A stretch of DNA of 37,626 nt from a virus. The translations under genes were made by a program, and so were the position numbers. The notes beneath the pieces are model-generated. The model saw only the letters and a program-made list of their open reading frames with translations, did not search any database and had not been told where the DNA came from. Positions 4,785-18,776 of this stretch are shown here, in pieces. The stretch spans positions 1 through 37,626 of IMG/VR virus record IMGVR_UViG_3300047551_000892. The stretch is one strand, 5' to 3'. Each line of letters opens with the position of its first letter. Position 1 is the stretch's first letter.

Positions 4785-4884
4785 AGATCTATTGGAAAAA
4801 CTCAAGGCCGCGGCAGACAAGAGAAAGCCGAAGCCTAAACCCGAAGATGGGAAAATGAAGGAAAAGGAACCGATACATGGCTAA
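4777..4884 (+). CDS. small hypothetical protein between portal and protease
   Basis: A 35-residue ORF begins at an ATG inside the last codons of the portal gene and ends inside the first codons of the protease gene. It overlaps each neighbour by 8 bases. The peptide begins MLKDLLEKLKAAADKRKPKP and is a short amphipathic helix followed by a very basic Lys/Pro-rich tail ending in EPIHG. It fills the only gap between portal and protease, and both overlaps fit coupled translation. I recognise no family. A portal-proximal assembly peptide is conceivable, but this is inference from position. The frame remains open further upstream inside the portal gene, and that part looks like a frame shadow. Confidence 0.5.
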   Translation: MLKDLLEKLKAAADKRKPKPKPEDGKMKEKEPIHG

Positions 4885-5644
4885 GCACATTCAATTCTTC
4901 ACCGAGGCAAAGGTTGAGCTTGGCCGTATGGCTGACGAGGCAACCGGCGAACCAATCGGCGAGATCGAAGCGACTCTGACAACCTGGGGCGCAAGAGAAG
5001 GCGCAGATGGGCGCAGATTTTTCTACACGCCCGCAGCTTTTGAGATGTGGCACGAAGGTTGGATGGAAGCCGGCAGACCGTTGCCGATGTACTTTCAGCA
5101 CAGTTCAGACATGATGCCCGTGGGTGAGTGGTCAAAGTTCGACATTACCGACGAAGGCATGACCGGAACCGGGAAACTTTTTCTAAATACGACGGCAGGA
5201 TCGGATCTTTATACGATCATGAAGGAATCGCCGCGCATGGTCGGTGGTGTCTCTGTCGGTGCTTACGCTGATGAATACCAAATGGTCGATGAGAACGGCG
5301 AGCCAACAGACGATCCTGACAGCTTCTTTCAGATCATGAAAGGCGGATTGGCTGAGGTTTCGATTGTGATGAACCCCAACAATCCCAAAGCTGAGATTTC
5401 AAGACTTGAATACTGGATGGGGGATAAACCAAACCCCAGAACGATTGAAAAAGCTCTGCGTGATGCTGGGCTTTCTCGAAAGGATGCAGCCGCTGCATCC
5501 GGCTTGTTGAAGTCGATCATAGAGCAGCGTGACGCTGCCGTGACAACTTCTCAACCCGCTAATCCGAGTGAGTCGGACGCAGCGGTGAAACTGCTTGAAG
5601 CGCTCCAATACCGCGAGCTGCTGAAGGCAATTGCAACCCGATAA
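4877..5644 (+). CDS. prohead (head maturation) protease, S78/HK97 family
   Basis: The 255-residue protein carries the catalytic pattern of HK97-type U35/S78 prohead proteases. His lies in MYFQHSSDMMPVGEW (about 74-88), Ser in GGVSVGAYADE (about 119-129), and an acidic residue in GGLAEVSIVMNPNNPKAEI (about 155-173). The protease is packaged in the prohead, removes the N-terminal scaffold-like region of the major capsid protein, and degrades itself. The C-terminal 80 residues are helical (KALRDAGLSRKDAAAASGLL). The start is supported by AAGGAA about 9 bases upstream of the ATG. The next gene is the capsid protein with a long N-terminal coiled coil, the expected substrate. Confidence 0.93.
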   Translation: MAKHIQFFTEAKVELGRMADEATGEPIGEIEATLTTWGAREGADGRRFFYTPAAFEMWHEGWMEAGRPLPMYFQHSSDMMPVGEWSKFDITDEGMTGTGKLFLNTTAGSDLYTIMKESPRMVGGVSVGAYADEYQMVDENGEPTDDPDSFFQIMKGGLAEVSIVMNPNNPKAEISRLEYWMGDKPNPRTIEKALRDAGLSRKDAAAASGLLKSIIEQRDAAVTTSQPANPSESDAAVKLLEALQYRELLKAIATR

Positions 5645-5654
5645 AGGAACTATC

Positions 5655-7004
5655 ATGCTTGAAAAAGTCATTGAAAAACTAGATGCAATTGAAGCATCTA
5701 ACGCTGCAAAACTTGCTGAAACTGCCGAGGCTGTAAAGACTCAAGTTACCGAAGCTGTACAGGCAGTTAAAGCAGAAACCGAGCAAAAACTTGCCGCTCT
5801 TGAGGCAAAGATTGCCGCTCCCTCTATCATTCGCCCCATCCACAAGACTGTTCGTGGTGAGGCAAATCGTCGCTTCCGCGATGTACTGAAAGAGTACATG
5901 AAGGGTGGTAATCAGGTTGAGCGCGAAGTAAAGATCTTTGAATCGGTCGATCAATTCGACGGGTACATCAAAGAAGCATCTTCGCTTACCGGTTCTGGTT
6001 ACGATGTTGGTGGCCGTACCGCTTACGATCCCGTGTTTGCTGCTAAGCGTCTTGGCAATCCGATGATGGATCTTTCCCGCATTGTGGCAACCGACGGTTC
6101 TGCTTACCAGTTCCGCGTAAAGACCGGCAACGCTGGCGCTCAGTGGGGCTATACGGTGCAAAATAACGGTGCATCCACGACTGAAGCAACGTCGATTTGG
6201 CAGGTAATCCTCAAAGACTTGAACGCACAGTTCCCAATCCGTACTGCTGCGCTTGATGATATTGACGGTCTTGAGCCCAACGTTGTTGACGACATGCTGA
6301 TGGAATTCCAGCAGGCAATGGCAACCTCGATGATCCAGAACAACGACCAATCGGGAACCGGAACCTCGGTATCGACTGGCGGCGCTGATGGTCTGCGAGG
6401 CTTGGATCAGTATGCGGGCGCAAATGCAACCTACACGGGCGGTACAGTTTCCACGGCTTCTTTCGGAACCTCGGGAACCGCAACCACGAACGGTCTGCAT
6501 AACCTTGCAACGTATGACCAGTTGACTACCAACGCAAACACTGTAGGCGCTAACAACATCGTCTATAAAGACGTTGTTAACTTCATCTACAGCTTGCCGC
6601 AGCAATACTGGACCCCGACAGCTCGCTTCATGATTAACCCAATCTTGTTGCAGGGCATCCGTGGTTTGGTTGACGATCAGAAGCGTCCGATCTACATCGA
6701 CGGTCTGAGCCGTGACGATGGCATCGTTGGTAAGTTGCTTGGCTTCGATGTGGTGGTTAACAAGTATGTTGACAATCCTTCTCAGCCCACAACCGGCGCG
6801 GCAGGTACAACCAGCTATTACCCCATGTATTTTGCTGACTTCCAGCAGTTCCACACCATCGTTATGCGCTTGAGCATGGTTCTGCGTCGTTACGACCAGA
6901 CGCTCCCAGGCTCGATCACGTTCTACGGCGAGACTCGCGCAGCTACATCTGTGCGCGATCCTAACGCTGGCGTACGTTATCGCTCGACTGGCACTGCGGC
7001 TTAA
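5655..7004 (+). CDS. major capsid protein, HK97 fold, with N-terminal scaffold-like region
   Basis: The product is 449 residues from the ATG at 5655, chosen because AAAGGAA lies 6 bases upstream. An ATG at 5631 in the same frame lacks such a site. Residues 1-65 form an Ala/Glu/Lys-rich coiled coil (EKVIEKLDAIEASNAAKLAE), equivalent to the HK97 delta domain that scaffolds assembly and is cleaved off. The rest is an HK97-type capsid fold: ASSLTGSGYDVGGR near 110, VKTGNA, ATSIWQ, then IRTAALDDIDGL and GLRGL. The C-terminal block PGSITFYGETR..TSVRDPNAGVR is typical of the family. The following gene is a paralogue covering only the part after the coiled coil. Confidence 0.93.
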   Translation: MLEKVIEKLDAIEASNAAKLAETAEAVKTQVTEAVQAVKAETEQKLAALEAKIAAPSIIRPIHKTVRGEANRRFRDVLKEYMKGGNQVEREVKIFESVDQFDGYIKEASSLTGSGYDVGGRTAYDPVFAAKRLGNPMMDLSRIVATDGSAYQFRVKTGNAGAQWGYTVQNNGASTTEATSIWQVILKDLNAQFPIRTAALDDIDGLEPNVVDDMLMEFQQAMATSMIQNNDQSGTGTSVSTGGADGLRGLDQYAGANATYTGGTVSTASFGTSGTATTNGLHNLATYDQLTTNANTVGANNIVYKDVVNFIYSLPQQYWTPTARFMINPILLQGIRGLVDDQKRPIYIDGLSRDDGIVGKLLGFDVVVNKYVDNPSQPTTGAAGTTSYYPMYFADFQQFHTIVMRLSMVLRRYDQTLPGSITFYGETRAATSVRDPNAGVRYRSTGTAA

Positions 7005-7008
7005 TTTA

Positions 7009-7040
7009 AGAGGGCGAAAGCCCTCTCCCTCTATGGAGAG
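7009..7040 (+). promoter_or_regulatory. two overlapping, mutually exclusive hairpins before second capsid gene
   Basis: Hairpin 1 is AGAGGGC (7009-7015), loop GAAA, GCCCTCT (7020-7026), a perfect 7-bp stem with a GNRA tetraloop. Hairpin 2 is CTCTCC (7023-7028), loop CTCTAT, GGAGAG (7035-7040), a perfect 6-bp stem. Bases 7023-7026 belong to both, so only one can form. GGAGAG is the ribosome binding site of the ATG at 7044, so hairpin 2 would hide it and hairpin 1 would free it. No T-run follows either stem, so a simple terminator is unlikely. A role in setting the ratio of the two capsid proteins is inferred. Confidence 0.6.
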
Positions 7041-7043
7041 ACT

Positions 7044-8072
7044 ATGAGACAGGTAATTTTAGAAGGGCTTAAGCAGGCTCTCCACGAGGGCAAAGCCACG
7101 GTGAACCTCGCTGAAGCCTCAGCCCTCACGGGCTCAGGCTCCGGCGTTGGTGGCCGCGTCTATAACGAAGATGTATTTGCAAGTCTGCGCTACTGGAACC
7201 CTTTCCGGGTTTACGCTAACCAGACGATGACCTCGGATTCGGATATTCAGTTTGTTGTTAAGACTGGTAACGCTGCCAACAGTACGAACCCCTGGGGCTA
7301 CACGGTCAACGCTAACAGCGGATCGCCCAACATTGCCACAAGCATTTGGCAGCTTCCGATGCGCGTTATTTCGGCTCAGATGCCTATCCGCGCGGCAGCG
7401 ATGGACGACATCAACGGTCTTGATGCAGCTTTAGCTGAAGATCTTGCAATGGAATTCAGCCAGATCGAAGCCGCGTCGATGGCTACCAATGACGATCAGG
7501 CAGGATCAACCACGACAAGCACAGGCGCGACCAATGGTCTGCGCGGTCTTAAGATGTACGCAGGAACAGCGGGTTCTACGGCGGCTTACGGCAGCTCGGG
7601 AACTGCTATTACTAACGGCATCCACACGCTCAATACTGTCGGCTATACGCACAGCGGCGGCATTGAGTGGGAAAGCCTTGTTGACGTTGCTAACGCTCTT
7701 CCAGGTCAGTTTTGGAGAATGCCTGGGACTGCTTGGATGATGCACCCAACGGCGCTGCAAACCCTTCGCAAGTACACGCACGGCGGCAACTCCTATACGT
7801 TGGTTGAAACCGGCGAGGAAGGCGAAGGCCCAGGTGTAAACATCATGGGCTGGCCGGTTATTGTGAATCCGTACTTAGACGCTCCCGCTGTTGGCGCTTC
7901 TCCGATCTATCTTGCAAATTGGCCGCGATTCTTCTGGATTGTTGACCATTCAGAGATGACGTTGCAACGCATGGAGCAAACGCAGCCTGGGACGATTACG
8001 GTGTACGCTGAGAAGCGTTTAGTTTCGACTGTGCGTGATGTAACCGCTGGTGTTCGGTTGATCGGGGCTTAA
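7044..8072 (+). CDS. second HK97-fold capsid paralogue without scaffold region
   Basis: This 342-residue protein is clearly homologous to its upstream neighbour. Shared blocks in the same order include ALTGSG..VGGR, VKTGNA, WGYTV, ATSIWQ, IR.AA.DDI.GL, MEF, GLRGL, YAG, GTA.TNG, QTQPGTIT.Y and STVRD..AGVR. Homology begins about 20 residues from its N-terminus, at the place where the mature part of the first protein should start. The N-terminal coiled coil is missing. It could be a minor capsid or vertex protein (as gp24 is to gp23 in T4), an alternative major capsid protein, or a protein that co-assembles without needing cleavage. The start has GGAGAG 4 bases upstream. Confidence 0.88.
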   Translation: MRQVILEGLKQALHEGKATVNLAEASALTGSGSGVGGRVYNEDVFASLRYWNPFRVYANQTMTSDSDIQFVVKTGNAANSTNPWGYTVNANSGSPNIATSIWQLPMRVISAQMPIRAAAMDDINGLDAALAEDLAMEFSQIEAASMATNDDQAGSTTTSTGATNGLRGLKMYAGTAGSTAAYGSSGTAITNGIHTLNTVGYTHSGGIEWESLVDVANALPGQFWRMPGTAWMMHPTALQTLRKYTHGGNSYTLVETGEEGEGPGVNIMGWPVIVNPYLDAPAVGASPIYLANWPRFFWIVDHSEMTLQRMEQTQPGTITVYAEKRLVSTVRDVTAGVRLIGA

Positions 8073-8073
8073 T

Positions 8074-8718
8074 ATGCCAAGTCAGCTACAGGGTAATTTC
8101 GGAGCGGGTTCGCGTAACCCGTTCAACTACTCGAAGGTCATTCAAAGTACCCGAGATCCGGTTACGCAATGGCTTACGCTCGACGAAATCACCAATCAGC
8201 TCAATTTGTTTGCGGATGAATCTCAAGACGAGTTTTTGTCGCAGCTTGAGCTGGCAGCGCGAATGGCAATCGAAGATTATTTGGGCGTTCCAATCTTCAA
8301 TGTAACGTATCAAGCTTCTTATCTAATCTCGGGTTTGATGGCTGCTCCGGTCTCGCTGGATCTTCCCGAGGTTTCGCAAAACGGCGTAACGATCAACTGG
8401 GTTAAGTATTACAACGACCTAAATCCTCCCGTTCTCACGACGATTGCAAGCAGTCAATATTACTACGACCCGACAGGGAACAAGTTAGTTCTTTTCGAGG
8501 TTCCTAATAACGTCAACACCTACATGACCGCTCCGATGCTTTGCCAGTACACACTACAAGGCAGTGTTATTGGTCAGTATCCCGTGGTTAAGCAAGCTGG
8601 TCTCATGCTTCTCACGCATTTCTACAATAACCGTTCTGCAATTTCTGAGGCTAAGCAATATCAGCTTCCCTGGGCAATTGACCAGTTGTTGCGACCCTAC
8701 CGCACTTTGGTGATGTGA
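8074..8718 (+). CDS. head-tail connector protein (gp6-like)
   Basis: The 214-residue protein has the gp6-like/QLRG connector pattern in its N-terminal half: WLTLDEITNQLNL, then a helical LSQLELAARMAIEDYLGVPI (about 53-72). A beta-rich segment and a C-terminal helix follow (QAGLMLLTHFYNNRSAIS, about 180-197), equivalent to the part that packs against the portal. Proteins of this family form the ring directly under the portal. The gene follows the second capsid gene with one base between them and is joined to the next gene by a TGATG overlap. The extra middle section makes it longer than minimal gp6 proteins. Confidence 0.8.
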   Translation: MPSQLQGNFGAGSRNPFNYSKVIQSTRDPVTQWLTLDEITNQLNLFADESQDEFLSQLELAARMAIEDYLGVPIFNVTYQASYLISGLMAAPVSLDLPEVSQNGVTINWVKYYNDLNPPVLTTIASSQYYYDPTGNKLVLFEVPNNVNTYMTAPMLCQYTLQGSVIGQYPVVKQAGLMLLTHFYNNRSAISEAKQYQLPWAIDQLLRPYRTLVM

Positions 8719-13996: not shown

Positions 13997-14646
13997 CAAC
14001 TCCAATGACCGCGTTATCTTCGTCAACGATAACGCACAGTGAATTCGTAAGGCTAGTCACAAGCACAAATACTTATACGTTTTGTTCTGCTGCCGCATCC
14101 ATTACGGTTTCGGGCATTACGTTTACAGGGTTAGGCAGCCTTCTTTCTGTTGGCGACGTTCAGAGAGACTTAAAGGCAACCTCTGATGACATGCTTATAA
14201 CGTTGATCGGTATAGACCCGACAAACGTTGCTCTAGTTCTTGCAAACAACATTAAGGGCTCAACCGTTGAAATCTGGCGCGGCTTCTTTGACTCTAATTA
14301 TCAAATCATCACAAGCCCAACCACTCAATTTTTTAAGCGCTACCAGGGCATTGTTAACAGCGTAAGCCTGAATGAAACCTTTGACGAAAACAACCGATCG
14401 CGAACGGTTGCTTGCTCAATTGCTTGCGCTTCGTTCCGTACGATCTTGGAGAACAAGATCTCAGGCATAAGAACGAATCAAAATACATGGCGAGCGCTTT
14501 ATTCGACAGATGCAAGCATGGATCGAGTCGATGCAATTGCAGGGCAATACTTTGATTTCGGATCGCCTCCAAAAGGCGGCGGCTTGTCTGATCCTAATTC
14601 TGGAGACCAACCTAATGTTTATGAGCAAGATCTAACTGGTATATGA
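13993..14646 (+). CDS. tail hub/DUF2163-like minor tail protein
   Basis: The 217-residue protein starts at a GTG overlapping the previous stop (GTGA); an ATG at 14005 is an alternative four codons in. The sequence TYTFCSAAASITVSGITFTG, then LLSVGDVQRDLKATSDDM and GSTVEIWRGFFDS, resembles the DUF2163/hub-type tail proteins of gene transfer agents and siphoviruses. These lie between the distal tail protein and the tip protein. The C-terminal 60 residues are Cys/Ser-rich then Gly/Pro-rich (FGSPPKGGGLSDPNS). It probably forms part of the tail tip ring that the J-like protein docks on. Family assignment is moderate. Confidence 0.6.
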   Translation: MTTPMTALSSSTITHSEFVRLVTSTNTYTFCSAAASITVSGITFTGLGSLLSVGDVQRDLKATSDDMLITLIGIDPTNVALVLANNIKGSTVEIWRGFFDSNYQIITSPTTQFFKRYQGIVNSVSLNETFDENNRSRTVACSIACASFRTILENKISGIRTNQNTWRALYSTDASMDRVDAIAGQYFDFGSPPKGGGLSDPNSGDQPNVYEQDLTGI

Positions 14647-15080
14647 GATACGCGACAAAATACGACATGCCTCATTTGGTTGAGATGATGAAGGCATACG
14701 CAAACGAAGCAGGGATAGAAACACTAAAAAACAACCAGAACGAGAGTCACGTTCGATCTTTATTTTATGAAATGTTAAAGGGGCGCGGCTTTGTTTTGGT
14801 AGACGATCAGCTTCGTGGATTTATAGCTGCCTACATCACAAGAAACTTTTGGAACAATAGCGTCAGAGAGTTACACGAGGTTGCTTGGTGGGTAGACCCA
14901 GAGTATCGAAGTACATCAATTGGCGGGAGGCTCTGGTTAAGGTTCAACAAGCTAGCTCAGGATTTGTTAGACCAAAAAAGAGTTCAGATTGTTTGTACAA
15001 GCCTTATGCCTACAAGCCCAGAGATTGATTACACACGATACAAATTTAAGCCATTGCAAGCAACATTCTTTAGAGAGTAG
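14643..15080 (+). CDS. GNAT-family N-acetyltransferase inside tail module
   Basis: The 145-residue protein has a GNAT fold. The N-terminal MRYATKYDMPHLVEMMKAYA is the typical first strand-helix. FVLVDDQLRGFIAAYI gives strands 2-3. HEVAWWVDPEYRSTSIGGRL carries strand 4 and the acetyl-CoA pyrophosphate loop; R-S-T-S-I-G-G resembles R-x-x-G-x-G/A but is not exact. The C-terminal FKPLQATFFRE closes the fold. The enzyme would move acetyl from acetyl-CoA to an amine. It lies, with ATGA coupling, between the hub and tip genes. A possible target is a tail protein or a host factor; neither can be read from the sequence. Confidence 0.82.
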   Translation: MRYATKYDMPHLVEMMKAYANEAGIETLKNNQNESHVRSLFYEMLKGRGFVLVDDQLRGFIAAYITRNFWNNSVRELHEVAWWVDPEYRSTSIGGRLWLRFNKLAQDLLDQKRVQIVCTSLMPTSPEIDYTRYKFKPLQATFFRE

Positions 15081-15083
15081 ATC

Positions 15084-18000
15084 ATGCCAGCCTCAATCAT
15101 TGTCGCCGGATTAGTTGAAGCAGGTGCATTTGCAGCAGGTAGCCTTGGCGCAATGGCGGCTACGGCTGCGATCAGGCTTGCAACCTCGGTTGTCGTTAGC
15201 AGGGCATTCGGAAATAAAAACTCAAACGCTATAGACCCTGGCGCTCGGCAGCAATTGCCACCAGCGGCAAATCTTTCTATCCCGATAGTCTACGGCGATG
15301 CTTATCTTGGCGGGAATTTTGTTGATGCGGTTTTGTCTACCGATCAAAAAACAATGTATTACGTTCTGGCAATTTCAAGCATCAGCGCAAACGGCCAGTT
15401 CTCTTTTGATACAACTGATTTTTGGTACGGCGACAGACAAATTACTTTTGACACGACAGATCTGACAAAGGTTGTTTCGCTTACGGATGGCAGCGGAAAC
15501 CCGCAAACGAACATCAACGGTTACATGTACATCAACTTGTACACGTCAACCAACGCGGGAGTTATCACGCCAATCAATGGATCTGCCCCGAGCGTTGTAA
15601 TGGGCGGATCAGACATCAGCGCATCGTTACGCTGGCCTGCTTCTGGCCGGCAGATGAACGGATTGGCTTTTGCTATTGTCAAACTGATTTACAACCGAGA
15701 TGCAGGAACGACGGGTTTGGAGCCCCTGACGTTCAAATGCTCGCAATACCTAAACGGAACGGGCGCGGCAAAGCCTGGGGATGTTTGGTATGACTACATG
15801 ACAGACACGAGGTATGGCGCTGGCATGACGGGATTGGTTGACTCTGCAAGCGCTGCTGCTCTTAATACTTATTCGGATGTTGTTCTTTCGTTCACAAATT
15901 CATCCGGCGGAACAAGTACGCAGCCCAGGTACAGGATCAACGGAGTTTTAGATACGGCTCGGCCAATCCTAGAAAACGTTGAGCAAATTATTGAGGCTTG
16001 TGATTGTTGGATGACCTACACGGCTGCTACCGGCCAATGGTCTGTTGTCGTCAACAAGGCTGAGACATCTTCGTTTTCTTTTAACGATACAAACCTTATC
16101 GGCGACATAAGAGTTAGTACAACAGACATCAATCAGCAGATCAATCAGATAGAAATTGAATTTCCAAGTAAAGACGCAAGAGATCAGCCTGATTTGGTTT
16201 ACATGGCGCTTTCGTCTGGCTTGTATGCAAATGAGCCTCCGAATCGAGAAACCTACAAGATGGAGATGGTTAACGATTCGGTTCAGGTTAAGTATCTTGC
16301 AAACCGTAGGCTTTTACAGTCACGCGAAGATCTGCTTGTTTCTATAACCGCTGCCTATCCAGCTATTCAGGTAGATGCTGGAGACGTTGTAGATATTACA
16401 AACACAGACTATGGATGGACAAACAAGCTCTTTCGTGTTTTCAAGGTTAACGAAGCGACCACGCCAGATGGAGGTCTTGGCGCAACGCTTGATTTAGTTG
16501 AGTATGCTGCAAGCGTTTACGCAGATCCTCCGCCGGGAACTATTGCACAGTATGCAGAAGCTCCGCCATCTAGCATCCCTTCTTCGCAGTACATTTCTGC
16601 CCCAGGAACGCCAGTTCTTTATAACGTGGCTCCTTATGCCCCTGCTCCATGCGCTGACCCTCCGGTTTTTAGCTTTTATTCGGATGCTCCCGCCACAGGC
16701 CGAGTTTCCCTCATGTCGCTTTATTACACAACGGTTGCAACGCCAACTAATAGTGACTGGAGCTTAATAAAAACATCTAGAACATTAGACGGAACACCGT
16801 TTAATCCCAATGTATCTGTGGTGTTTACAAACATCACGCTTCCTTCTGGAACGTACTATTTCCGAGCGATTGCTAGCAATGAAAGCGCTTCATCTGTTAG
16901 CGGAACCTCCTCGGCATACGTTTGGGATACAAGCGTAAGAACGGTAACGCTTGCCTCTACCGCTGTTCAATTTATAACCTCATCTGCTGGCGTTATTTCC
17001 CCGGCTTCTATAACTTTCACGGCTACAAGCTCGCTTAGCTCGCCAACGTGGGCATGGCGAGTAGATGGGGTTCTTCAGGCATCGACGACAAACACGTTTG
17101 TTCTTTCCGCGTTTGCTCCTAGTACAGCAAAAACAATATCGGTTACTGCCACGCAGGGTAGCTGTACTGCTTCGAGCTCAATGATCATTTCGAGCATCAG
17201 TGACGGAGCCGTAGGCCCAACCGGTCCCGCCGGCGGTCCTACCGGCCCCACGGGTCCGATCGGTCCAACCGGTTCCGGAAGCGGTCCCACAGGTCCCACC
17301 GGTGCCACCGGCGCCGCTTCCACAGTCGCCGGGCCCACAGGCCCTACCGGTGCCACCGGCCCATCCGTTACGGGCCCAACAGGGGCAGCGTCTACCGTTC
17401 CCGGCCCCACAGGCCCCACCGGTGCTCAAGGAAATATTGGCGCTACAGGCGCAACCGGTGCTCAAGGCCCAACCGGTGCCACCGGTCCGGTTTCCACCAC
17501 TCCCGGCCCCACAGGACCAACGGGCCAGCAAGGCATGGCTGGGCCTACCGGTGCTCAGGGCCCTCAAGGCAATACCGGCCCTACCGGTCCAGCCTCAACA
17601 GTCGCAGGCCCTACCGGTCCCACGGGTGCTCAAGGCAATGTTGGCGCAACAGGGCCACAGGGCAATATTGGCCCCACCGGTGCCACCGGTGCTGCTTCCA
17701 CCGTCCCTGGCCCTACTGGTCCGACCGGTGCCGGTGGCCCTACCGGTCCGGCTTCTACAGTTCCCGGGCCTACGGGTCCAACCGGTGCCGCCTCCTCCAT
17801 CGCCGGCCCCACGGGTCCCACTGGAGCCGCGTCCACGGTTCCTGGGCCCACTGGTCCCACCGGTGCTTCTGGCCTTTCGATTACCGGCCCCACCGGTCCG
17901 CAGGGTAACGTCGGCCCGACGGGTCCCCAAGGCATACAAGGAAATGTTGGCCCCACGGGTCCAACAGGCGTTCAGGGAAATGTTGGCCCTACCGGGGCGC

Positions 18001-18776
18001 AAGGTTCCCAGGGCCCAACCGGTCCAACCGGTGCCGCCTCCACCGTTCCCGGCCCTACCGGTCCGCAGGGCGCTACAGGCCCAACCGGAAGCAACGCAAC
18101 CCCTGGAGGCGTAAACACAAGCATTCAATACAACAATTCTGGCGCTTTTGGCGGATCTGCCGATTTCACTTGGAACGGCTCGACATTGTTTGCAAAAAGC
18201 GATGTGAAACTTCAGAAGAACATCCCCGAGATCTTGTTGAGGTCATCCGGTGATGTAAAGCAATATTTCATAAGCGCAAACATCAGCGACACAGTTGACG
18301 GAGGCGTTGTCATAGGGGCTGGAGCTAGCGTCAATAGCGGAACCGCATACTTTACGGTTACTTCTGCTGGTAATGCTGTTTGCGCTGGCGTGTACTCGCA
18401 AAACGTAGGCGGAACGAATCGAGACGTTTATGTAGACAACACGGGGTTGATTGGTTACGTCAGCTCATTACGCGAAACGAAAACGCAAATCGCAGAGATG
18501 CCAGATTGTTCTTGGCTTTACGCTCTCAATCCGGTTACATTTTTTTATAGAGCAAAAGATAAGGATGGCAACCTAACCGACGAAAAAGATGGGGAGATTG
18601 CGTACGGTTTGATTGCGGAAGATGTTGAGATCGTCAATCCTGATTTGTGTTATTACGATATTGTTGACGGGAAAAAAGAGCTTCGCGGCATCAACTATTC
18701 AAAACTTATTATTCCTCTTCTTAAAGAGCTAAAACGTCTCAATGCGATTGTTGCTAAACTTATAGATAAGCCATAA
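15084..18776 (+). CDS. tail tip protein with collagen-like stalk and S74 autoprocessing chaperone
   Basis: This 1230-residue protein has several parts. A hydrophobic N-terminus (about 3-40) leads into a J-like tail tip region to about residue 500, starting [20 protein letters not shown]. Fibronectin/Ig-like beta domains follow to about 705. A collagen-like Gly-Pro-Thr repeat spans about 709-1003. A short head domain comes next, and residues 1127-1230 form a C-terminal S74 intramolecular chaperone. In [10 protein letters not shown] the second Ser (1128) and Lys1133 are five residues apart, like the Ser-Lys dyad of endosialidase-type chaperones. [19 protein letters not shown] is the conserved core. 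The chaperone trimerises the fibre and is released by self-cleavage. This protein probably makes first host contact. Confidence 0.88.
17205..18090 (+). repeat. collagen-like Gly-X-Y repeat tract in tail tip gene
   Basis: About 295 codons are dominated by Gly-Pro-Thr/Gly-Ala-Thr triplets with regular interruptions of the type [13 protein letters not shown]. At DNA level the unit is GGCCC-N-ACCGGT, so the hexamer ACCGGT recurs many times. The repeat is imperfect in third positions, so it is an old repeat rather than a recent slippage product. A triple-helical rigid stalk is the expected product. Similar tracts occur in the fibre gene at 19347-21080, giving long stretches of DNA similarity that could allow recombination between the two genes. 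Confidence 0.9.

Follow-up and report, generated by a model that had tools for sequence, protein, structure and literature searches.

Two capsid genes in one head operon

Why would a phage with a genome of about 38 kb carry two capsid genes side by side, and what could the second one do? The window analysed here, a virus record of 37,626 bases taken at its full length, contains a siphophage head operon of the ordinary type, with the order terminase, portal, S78 protease, MCP1, MCP2, head-tail adaptor and head completion. The question is posed by MCP1 and MCP2. An initial annotation of this DNA had described them as tandem HK97-fold capsid paralogues, of which the second lacks the scaffold-like coiled coil, begins where the mature protein would start, and may sit at the vertices as gp24 does in T4. 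In the present analysis the HK97-fold paralogy and the loss of the coiled coil were borne out, and the pair proved to be conserved, but the exact coincidence of the MCP2 start with the mature N-terminus was not confirmed. The relevant features are as follows.

4877..5644, + strand: S78 prohead protease (PF04586, E 1.9e-9; PHROG head maturation protease)
5655..7004, + strand: MCP1, full-length HK97-type major capsid protein of 449 aa, ATG start (PF05065, E 2.4e-22)
5655..5849, + strand: MCP1 N-terminal coiled coil and linker, residues 1-65 (AlphaFold2 (AF2) helix 2-54; alignment gap in MCP2)
5850..5972, + strand: MCP1 residues 66-106, end of the delta-like region (AF2; aligned with HK97 prohead I)
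7009..7026, + strand: GC-rich hairpin AGAGGGC-GAAA-GCCCTCT between the MCP1 stop and the MCP2 start (-16.5 kcal/mol, z -3.0 against dinucleotide shuffles)
7034..7039, + strand: Shine-Dalgarno-like GGAGAG of MCP2 (from the sequence)
7044..8072, + strand: MCP2, short HK97-fold paralogue of 342 aa, ATG start (PF05065, E 2.7e-21; TIGR01554, E 7e-21)
7044..7109, + strand: MCP2 N-terminal segment, residues 1-22 (AF2 helix 2-15, strand 17-21)
8074..8718, + strand: head-tail adaptor, 1 base past MCP2 (PHROG_40 and PHROG_442 connector)

The sequence blocks that the two proteins had been said to share are present in the same order, and the proteins align with 41% identity over 344 columns (BLASTP, E 8e-64). 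Comparison of the MCP1 and MCP2 family profiles gave 100% probability (E 1e-87). Both genes are intact and both products belong to the HK97-type family, with PF05065 and TIGR01554 scores of 80.1 and 92.5 bits for MCP1 and 76.6 and 74.8 bits for MCP2, above the curated cut-offs of 24.2 and 27.5 bits respectively. PF05065 was the sole capsid family found in a Pfam scan at E 0.1, in which the pair had no match to the T4 capsid family.

A single gene broken by a frame error is excluded. Each gene has its own start and stop, MCP2 has its own ribosome-binding site, the two frames are intact in 51 divergent loci with dN/dS near 0.2, and an AGGA/GGA-type site lies upstream of MCP2 in 51/51 of these loci.

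Distribution, age and selection

IMG/VR was searched with the window MCP2 and with both proteins of the isolate Methylophilaceae phage P19250A (KX815270), giving loci from 99% to about 50% identity. The order protease-MCP1-MCP2-adaptor was found in every IMG/VR locus with enough sequence, the S78 protease gene lying immediately 5' of MCP1 in every relative long enough to show it, and loci with a single gene are those where the contig end cuts off the other. Twenty-one longer records, most of them 34-40 kb, were searched whole; each has one pair, barring one 76-kb record, and a gene is cut by the record end in 2 of the 21. P19250A (host IMCC19250) has the same head operon with both genes (58% identical to the window for MCP1 and 55% for MCP2), its MCP2, APC43891, being annotated as a hypothetical protein. 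The pair is therefore present in all IMG/VR relatives with room for it and in P19250A, and its carriers are small freshwater phages, with genomes of about 38 kb, that form a widespread group. The 76-kb exception (L183; record G313, 75,987 bases) has two MCP1-MCP2 pairs about 40 kb apart, and so probably represents a concatemer or two related phage genomes that the assembly has joined.

Among bacterial and archaeal genome contigs, two contigs of metagenome-assembled genomes (MAGs) matched, both with the pair. These are 33- and 39-kb phage contigs (L228 and L229) in MAGs assigned to Alphaproteobacteria and to the archaeon Nitrosotalea, and at least one of the placements is probably a binning error. 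No adjacent complete capsid genes were found in 299 proteobacterial genomes (80 with PF05065), except in a MAG with the same phage pair; the few adjacent PF05065 rows in these genomes are fragments of split genes. Phage Venkman (MT375522), reported to be related to P19250A and to resemble it in synteny (PMC8163748), has a single MCP (981 nt) in its annotated head module, together with a scaffolding protein encoded separately. It gave no match to MCP1 or MCP2, and so has no bearing on the pair.

In a tree of 51 non-redundant loci, MCP1 and MCP2 are separated by one branch with support of 100. Two fully supported clades indicate a single duplication before the spread of the group. The retention of the shared blocks across the family, in divergent relatives, likewise points to an old duplication and not a recent local one, which the tree rules out. 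No single-copy outgroup close enough for rooting was found among viral contigs, bacterial and archaeal genome contigs or phage records. Median dN/dS was 0.21 for MCP1 and 0.23 for MCP2, with 0.21 for the protease and 0.20 for the adaptor. The separate clades and low dN/dS argue that both proteins are under selection in long-term distinct roles, and the conservation of the pair across a large phage group argues that MCP2 is functional.

Predicted structures

AF2 models were made from 34-row alignments, leaving out the P19250A row. Mean pLDDT was moderate, at 65.5 and 62.7, with the E-loop and N-arm poorly placed; both models match HK97-fold capsids over the entire core. At this moderate confidence, both paralogues have the HK97 fold, with N-arm, E-loop, spine helix and P and A domains. 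In MCP2, where the E-loop and P domain were of particular interest, the E-loop region spans about 61-106 and the spine helix 117-148, followed by the P strands and A domain. The best match of the MCP2 model is the RcGTA capsid (Z 21.2, 253 residues, rmsd 3.6), which the MCP1 model matches with Z 18.2. This protein, Rcc01687 of the Rhodobacter GTA (6tb9, 6tsu), is the closest solved capsid by sequence (MCP1 E 6e-11, MCP2 E 2e-4) as well as by fold (Z 18-21). RcGTA has one capsid protein. The structural matches of the MCP2 model also include 9bje and 9bix, both Family 2B encapsulin; no T4 chain was among them, which was given no weight as evidence.

In HK97 the delta domain is removed on maturation, with cleavage after about residue 103. 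MCP1 opens with a predicted helix of 53 residues, and the coiled coil and linker to which it belongs (residues 1-65) have no counterpart in MCP2, either in the models or in the alignment. To this extent MCP2 does lack the region that the initial annotation had regarded as scaffold-like. The claim that MCP2 begins at the mature start is, however, inexact, since MCP2 keeps a conserved helix that corresponds to the last part of the HK97 delta domain: helix 66-83 and strand 90-93 of MCP1 correspond to helix 2-15 and strand 17-21 of MCP2. About 22 residues of MCP2 lie upstream of E24 (MCP1 E107), the point matching the usual HK97 cleavage region, and in both models the N-terminal part can be superposed on prohead I of HK97 or D3, starting at about residue 76-81. 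MCP2 has therefore lost the coiled coil but retains the end of a delta-domain-like pro-region. The motif ILxGIKxALxxGxxxVxL in this segment is conserved in 34 aligned homologues, which argues that the first 22 residues have a function, perhaps in docking within the prohead and in providing a protease site.

Likeness between the paralogues is lowest in the A-domain core (0.29), which makes contacts within its own capsomer and belongs to the region where the T4 changes that bypass gp24 are found, and reaches 0.43-0.59 in the E-loop, N-arm and P parts. This pattern is expected if contacts between capsomers are common to the two proteins and contacts within capsomers differ. The argument is weak, because A domains vary more generally and the A core of MCP1 varies in close pairs as well.

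Certain close pairs of loci (L226/L225; also L213, L145/L151 and the window against L046) are 95-98% identical in portal, MCP1 and adaptor, with nucleotide identity of 59-72% over one A-domain block of MCP2. In L226 (1-11070) compared with L225 (1-7977), for example, portal, MCP1 and adaptor are near-identical and the divergent block covers about residues 195-300 of MCP2. This looks like domain exchange by recombination. Similar divergent blocks occur in MCP1 in other close pairs, weakening the idea of an exchange limited to the MCP2 A domain.

Expression signals

MCP1 and MCP2 are 38-82 nt apart, compared with medians of 3 nt between protease and MCP1 and 2 nt between MCP2 and adaptor (41 loci). 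A GC-rich hairpin was found in this spacer in 51/51 divergent loci, with stem sequences quite unlike between subclades. Measured against dinucleotide shuffles, the spacer hairpins had a mean z of -2.7, with 43 of the 51 at -2 or below, compared with a mean z of -0.8 and 5/33 at -2 or below for control portal-protease spacers. When a hairpin followed by a T-run was required, 34/51 MCP1-MCP2 spacers were terminator-like, against 0/37, 0/45 and 2/41 at other boundaries; a stricter T count, confined to the 8 bases past the outermost pair, gave 19/51 against 0/33. The window hairpin has no T-run, unlike many of its relatives, so that there it may be an RNA-stability element and not a terminator.

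The fraction of Phe, Tyr, Ile and Asn codons that end in C was used as an indicator of high expression. This fraction was 0.46 for MCP1 and 0.27 for MCP2, and was higher for MCP1 in 31/31 loci, with MCP2 at or under the level of portal and adaptor. In overall codon bias, by contrast, MCP2 (Nc 39) stands between MCP1 (36) and the others (44). Together, the hairpin and the codon usage suggest a high level of MCP1 and a lower one of MCP2, which is probably a minor product. The spacer hairpin, the abutment of MCP2 on the connector gene and the codon optimisation of MCP1 are new in this analysis.

Role of MCP2

The role of a vertex subunit suits a minor protein that has a complete shell fold and is encoded next to an abundant paralogue, the only one of the two with the assembly coiled coil. 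From the sequence evidence, the best explanation of the whole, dosage included, would be that MCP2 is a minor shell component whose likeliest place is the vertices; we give this a probability of about 0.48. MCP1 would be the major shell protein: prohead assembly would be driven by its coiled-coil delta region, which the S78 protease is expected to remove by a cut near residues 103-108. MCP2, as an ancient duplicate that kept the shell fold and lost the coiled coil, would co-assemble on the MCP1 lattice as a minor component of the virion, most likely as homopentamers at the eleven non-portal vertices. A T=7 head would then hold about 360 copies of MCP1 and 55 of MCP2, and the hairpin 3' of MCP1 together with codon usage would set MCP1 well above MCP2. 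Proteolysis may also remove the short N-terminal segment of MCP2, with a cut expected at about residue 22, as it does 10 residues of T4 gp24. The gp24-like placement proposed in the initial annotation fits the evidence, including the hairpin, the codon usage and the short pro-segment. Against it, a major capsid gene would be expected to be followed by a hairpin in any case, simply to separate it from all the genes downstream, and the MCP1 of a 38 kb phage could itself form pentamers, like most.

The main rival, which we consider unlikely, is that MCP1 and MCP2 mix within capsomers, as hetero-hexamers or hetero-pentamers, or tile the shell irregularly. The high identity of 41% and the better match of the E-loop, N-arm and spine would suit such mixing, and there is a solved precedent in the Family 2B encapsulin of Streptomyces lydicus, in which the paralogues Sl-Enc1/2 co-assemble in the shell (PMC12407261). 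Mixing is harder to reconcile with the strongly asymmetric expression signals, and the A-domain cores, which would need to pack together in a mixed capsomer, are the least alike parts; the A-domain block of MCP2 can also differ while MCP1 is 97% identical (L226 and L225). The precedent is itself of another kind: like the phage pair, the S. lydicus proteins (9bje, 9bix) are two HK97-fold shell paralogues, but Family 2B encapsulins are cellular compartments with no portal, terminase or protease, and form random mixed pentamers, whereas terminase, portal, protease and connector genes flank MCP1-MCP2.

Somewhat less probable again is another special place for MCP2, as portal-vertex subunits, a size-determining ring, an outer decoration or an assembly factor. 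Its codon usage and gene position, adjoining the connector genes, mark it as minor and would agree with this; a complete shell fold with E-loop and N-arm, however, suits the lattice and not decoration, and we know of no HK97-fold decoration protein. It is improbable that MCP2 is an alternative major capsid protein, used under other conditions or to build a separate or smaller capsid. In favour are its full capsid fold and a ribosome-binding site of its own; against, it has no separate scaffold or coiled coil on which to assemble, and both genes are kept in one operon in all relatives. Least probable is a decaying or non-structural duplicate, for which the missing N-terminus and nothing else speaks, and against which MCP2 is intact in all loci, has a dN/dS of 0.23 and forms its own clade.

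Comparison with T4

T4 gp23 and gp24 are HK97-fold paralogues thought to derive from one duplication, and both are cut by the prohead protease; maturation removes 10 residues from gp24, which forms the vertices, and 65 from gp23, which forms the hexons, and the need for gp24 can be bypassed by point changes in the A domain of gp23 (PMC9958956). The present pair resembles them in being two HK97-fold paralogues in one phage head operon, with a protease gene and a 22-residue MCP2 pro-segment much shorter than that of its partner. It differs in that the T4 pair is about 17-20% identical and MCP1/MCP2 41%, and that T4 is a large prolate-headed phage with separate scaffold proteins, whereas MCP1 and MCP2 belong to PF05065/TIGR01554, have the delta-like region fused in MCP1, and occur in genomes of 35-40 kb. 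T4 gp24 is a known vertex protein; the vertex position of MCP2 is predicted here. Since the pair is of the HK97/GTA type and not of the T4 family, any T4-like division of labour arose separately. Tentatively, and with a chance somewhat short of even, a large group of small siphophages has independently evolved a vertex capsid protein by duplication of an HK97/GTA-type gene, with its dosage set by a hairpin behind the first gene.

A 2025 paper describes T4 as the only virus with two HK97-fold proteins in separate roles. The open papers searched, among which the original description of P19250A does not lie, contain no report of the MCP1-MCP2 pair or of the P19250A MCP2. If the vertex role of MCP2 is true, viruses would have a second established case of HK97-fold division of labour, and the first for a genome near 38 kb; conservation of such a pair in 35-40 kb phages would contradict the economy argument. 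With one member in culture, the group would also offer a tractable system for how pentamer and hexamer work is split after capsid duplication; at 41% identity the paralogues are close enough for the residues deciding between pentamer and hexamer to be mapped.

Other genes in the window

Two further genes of the window were noted by eye. Positions 15084-18776 encode a 1230-aa host-specificity (J-like) protein that contains a long GPTGPTG stretch resembling collagen and has a C-terminal end of S74-like appearance, and 14643-15080, within the tail module, encodes a small protein that looks like a GNAT acetyltransferase.
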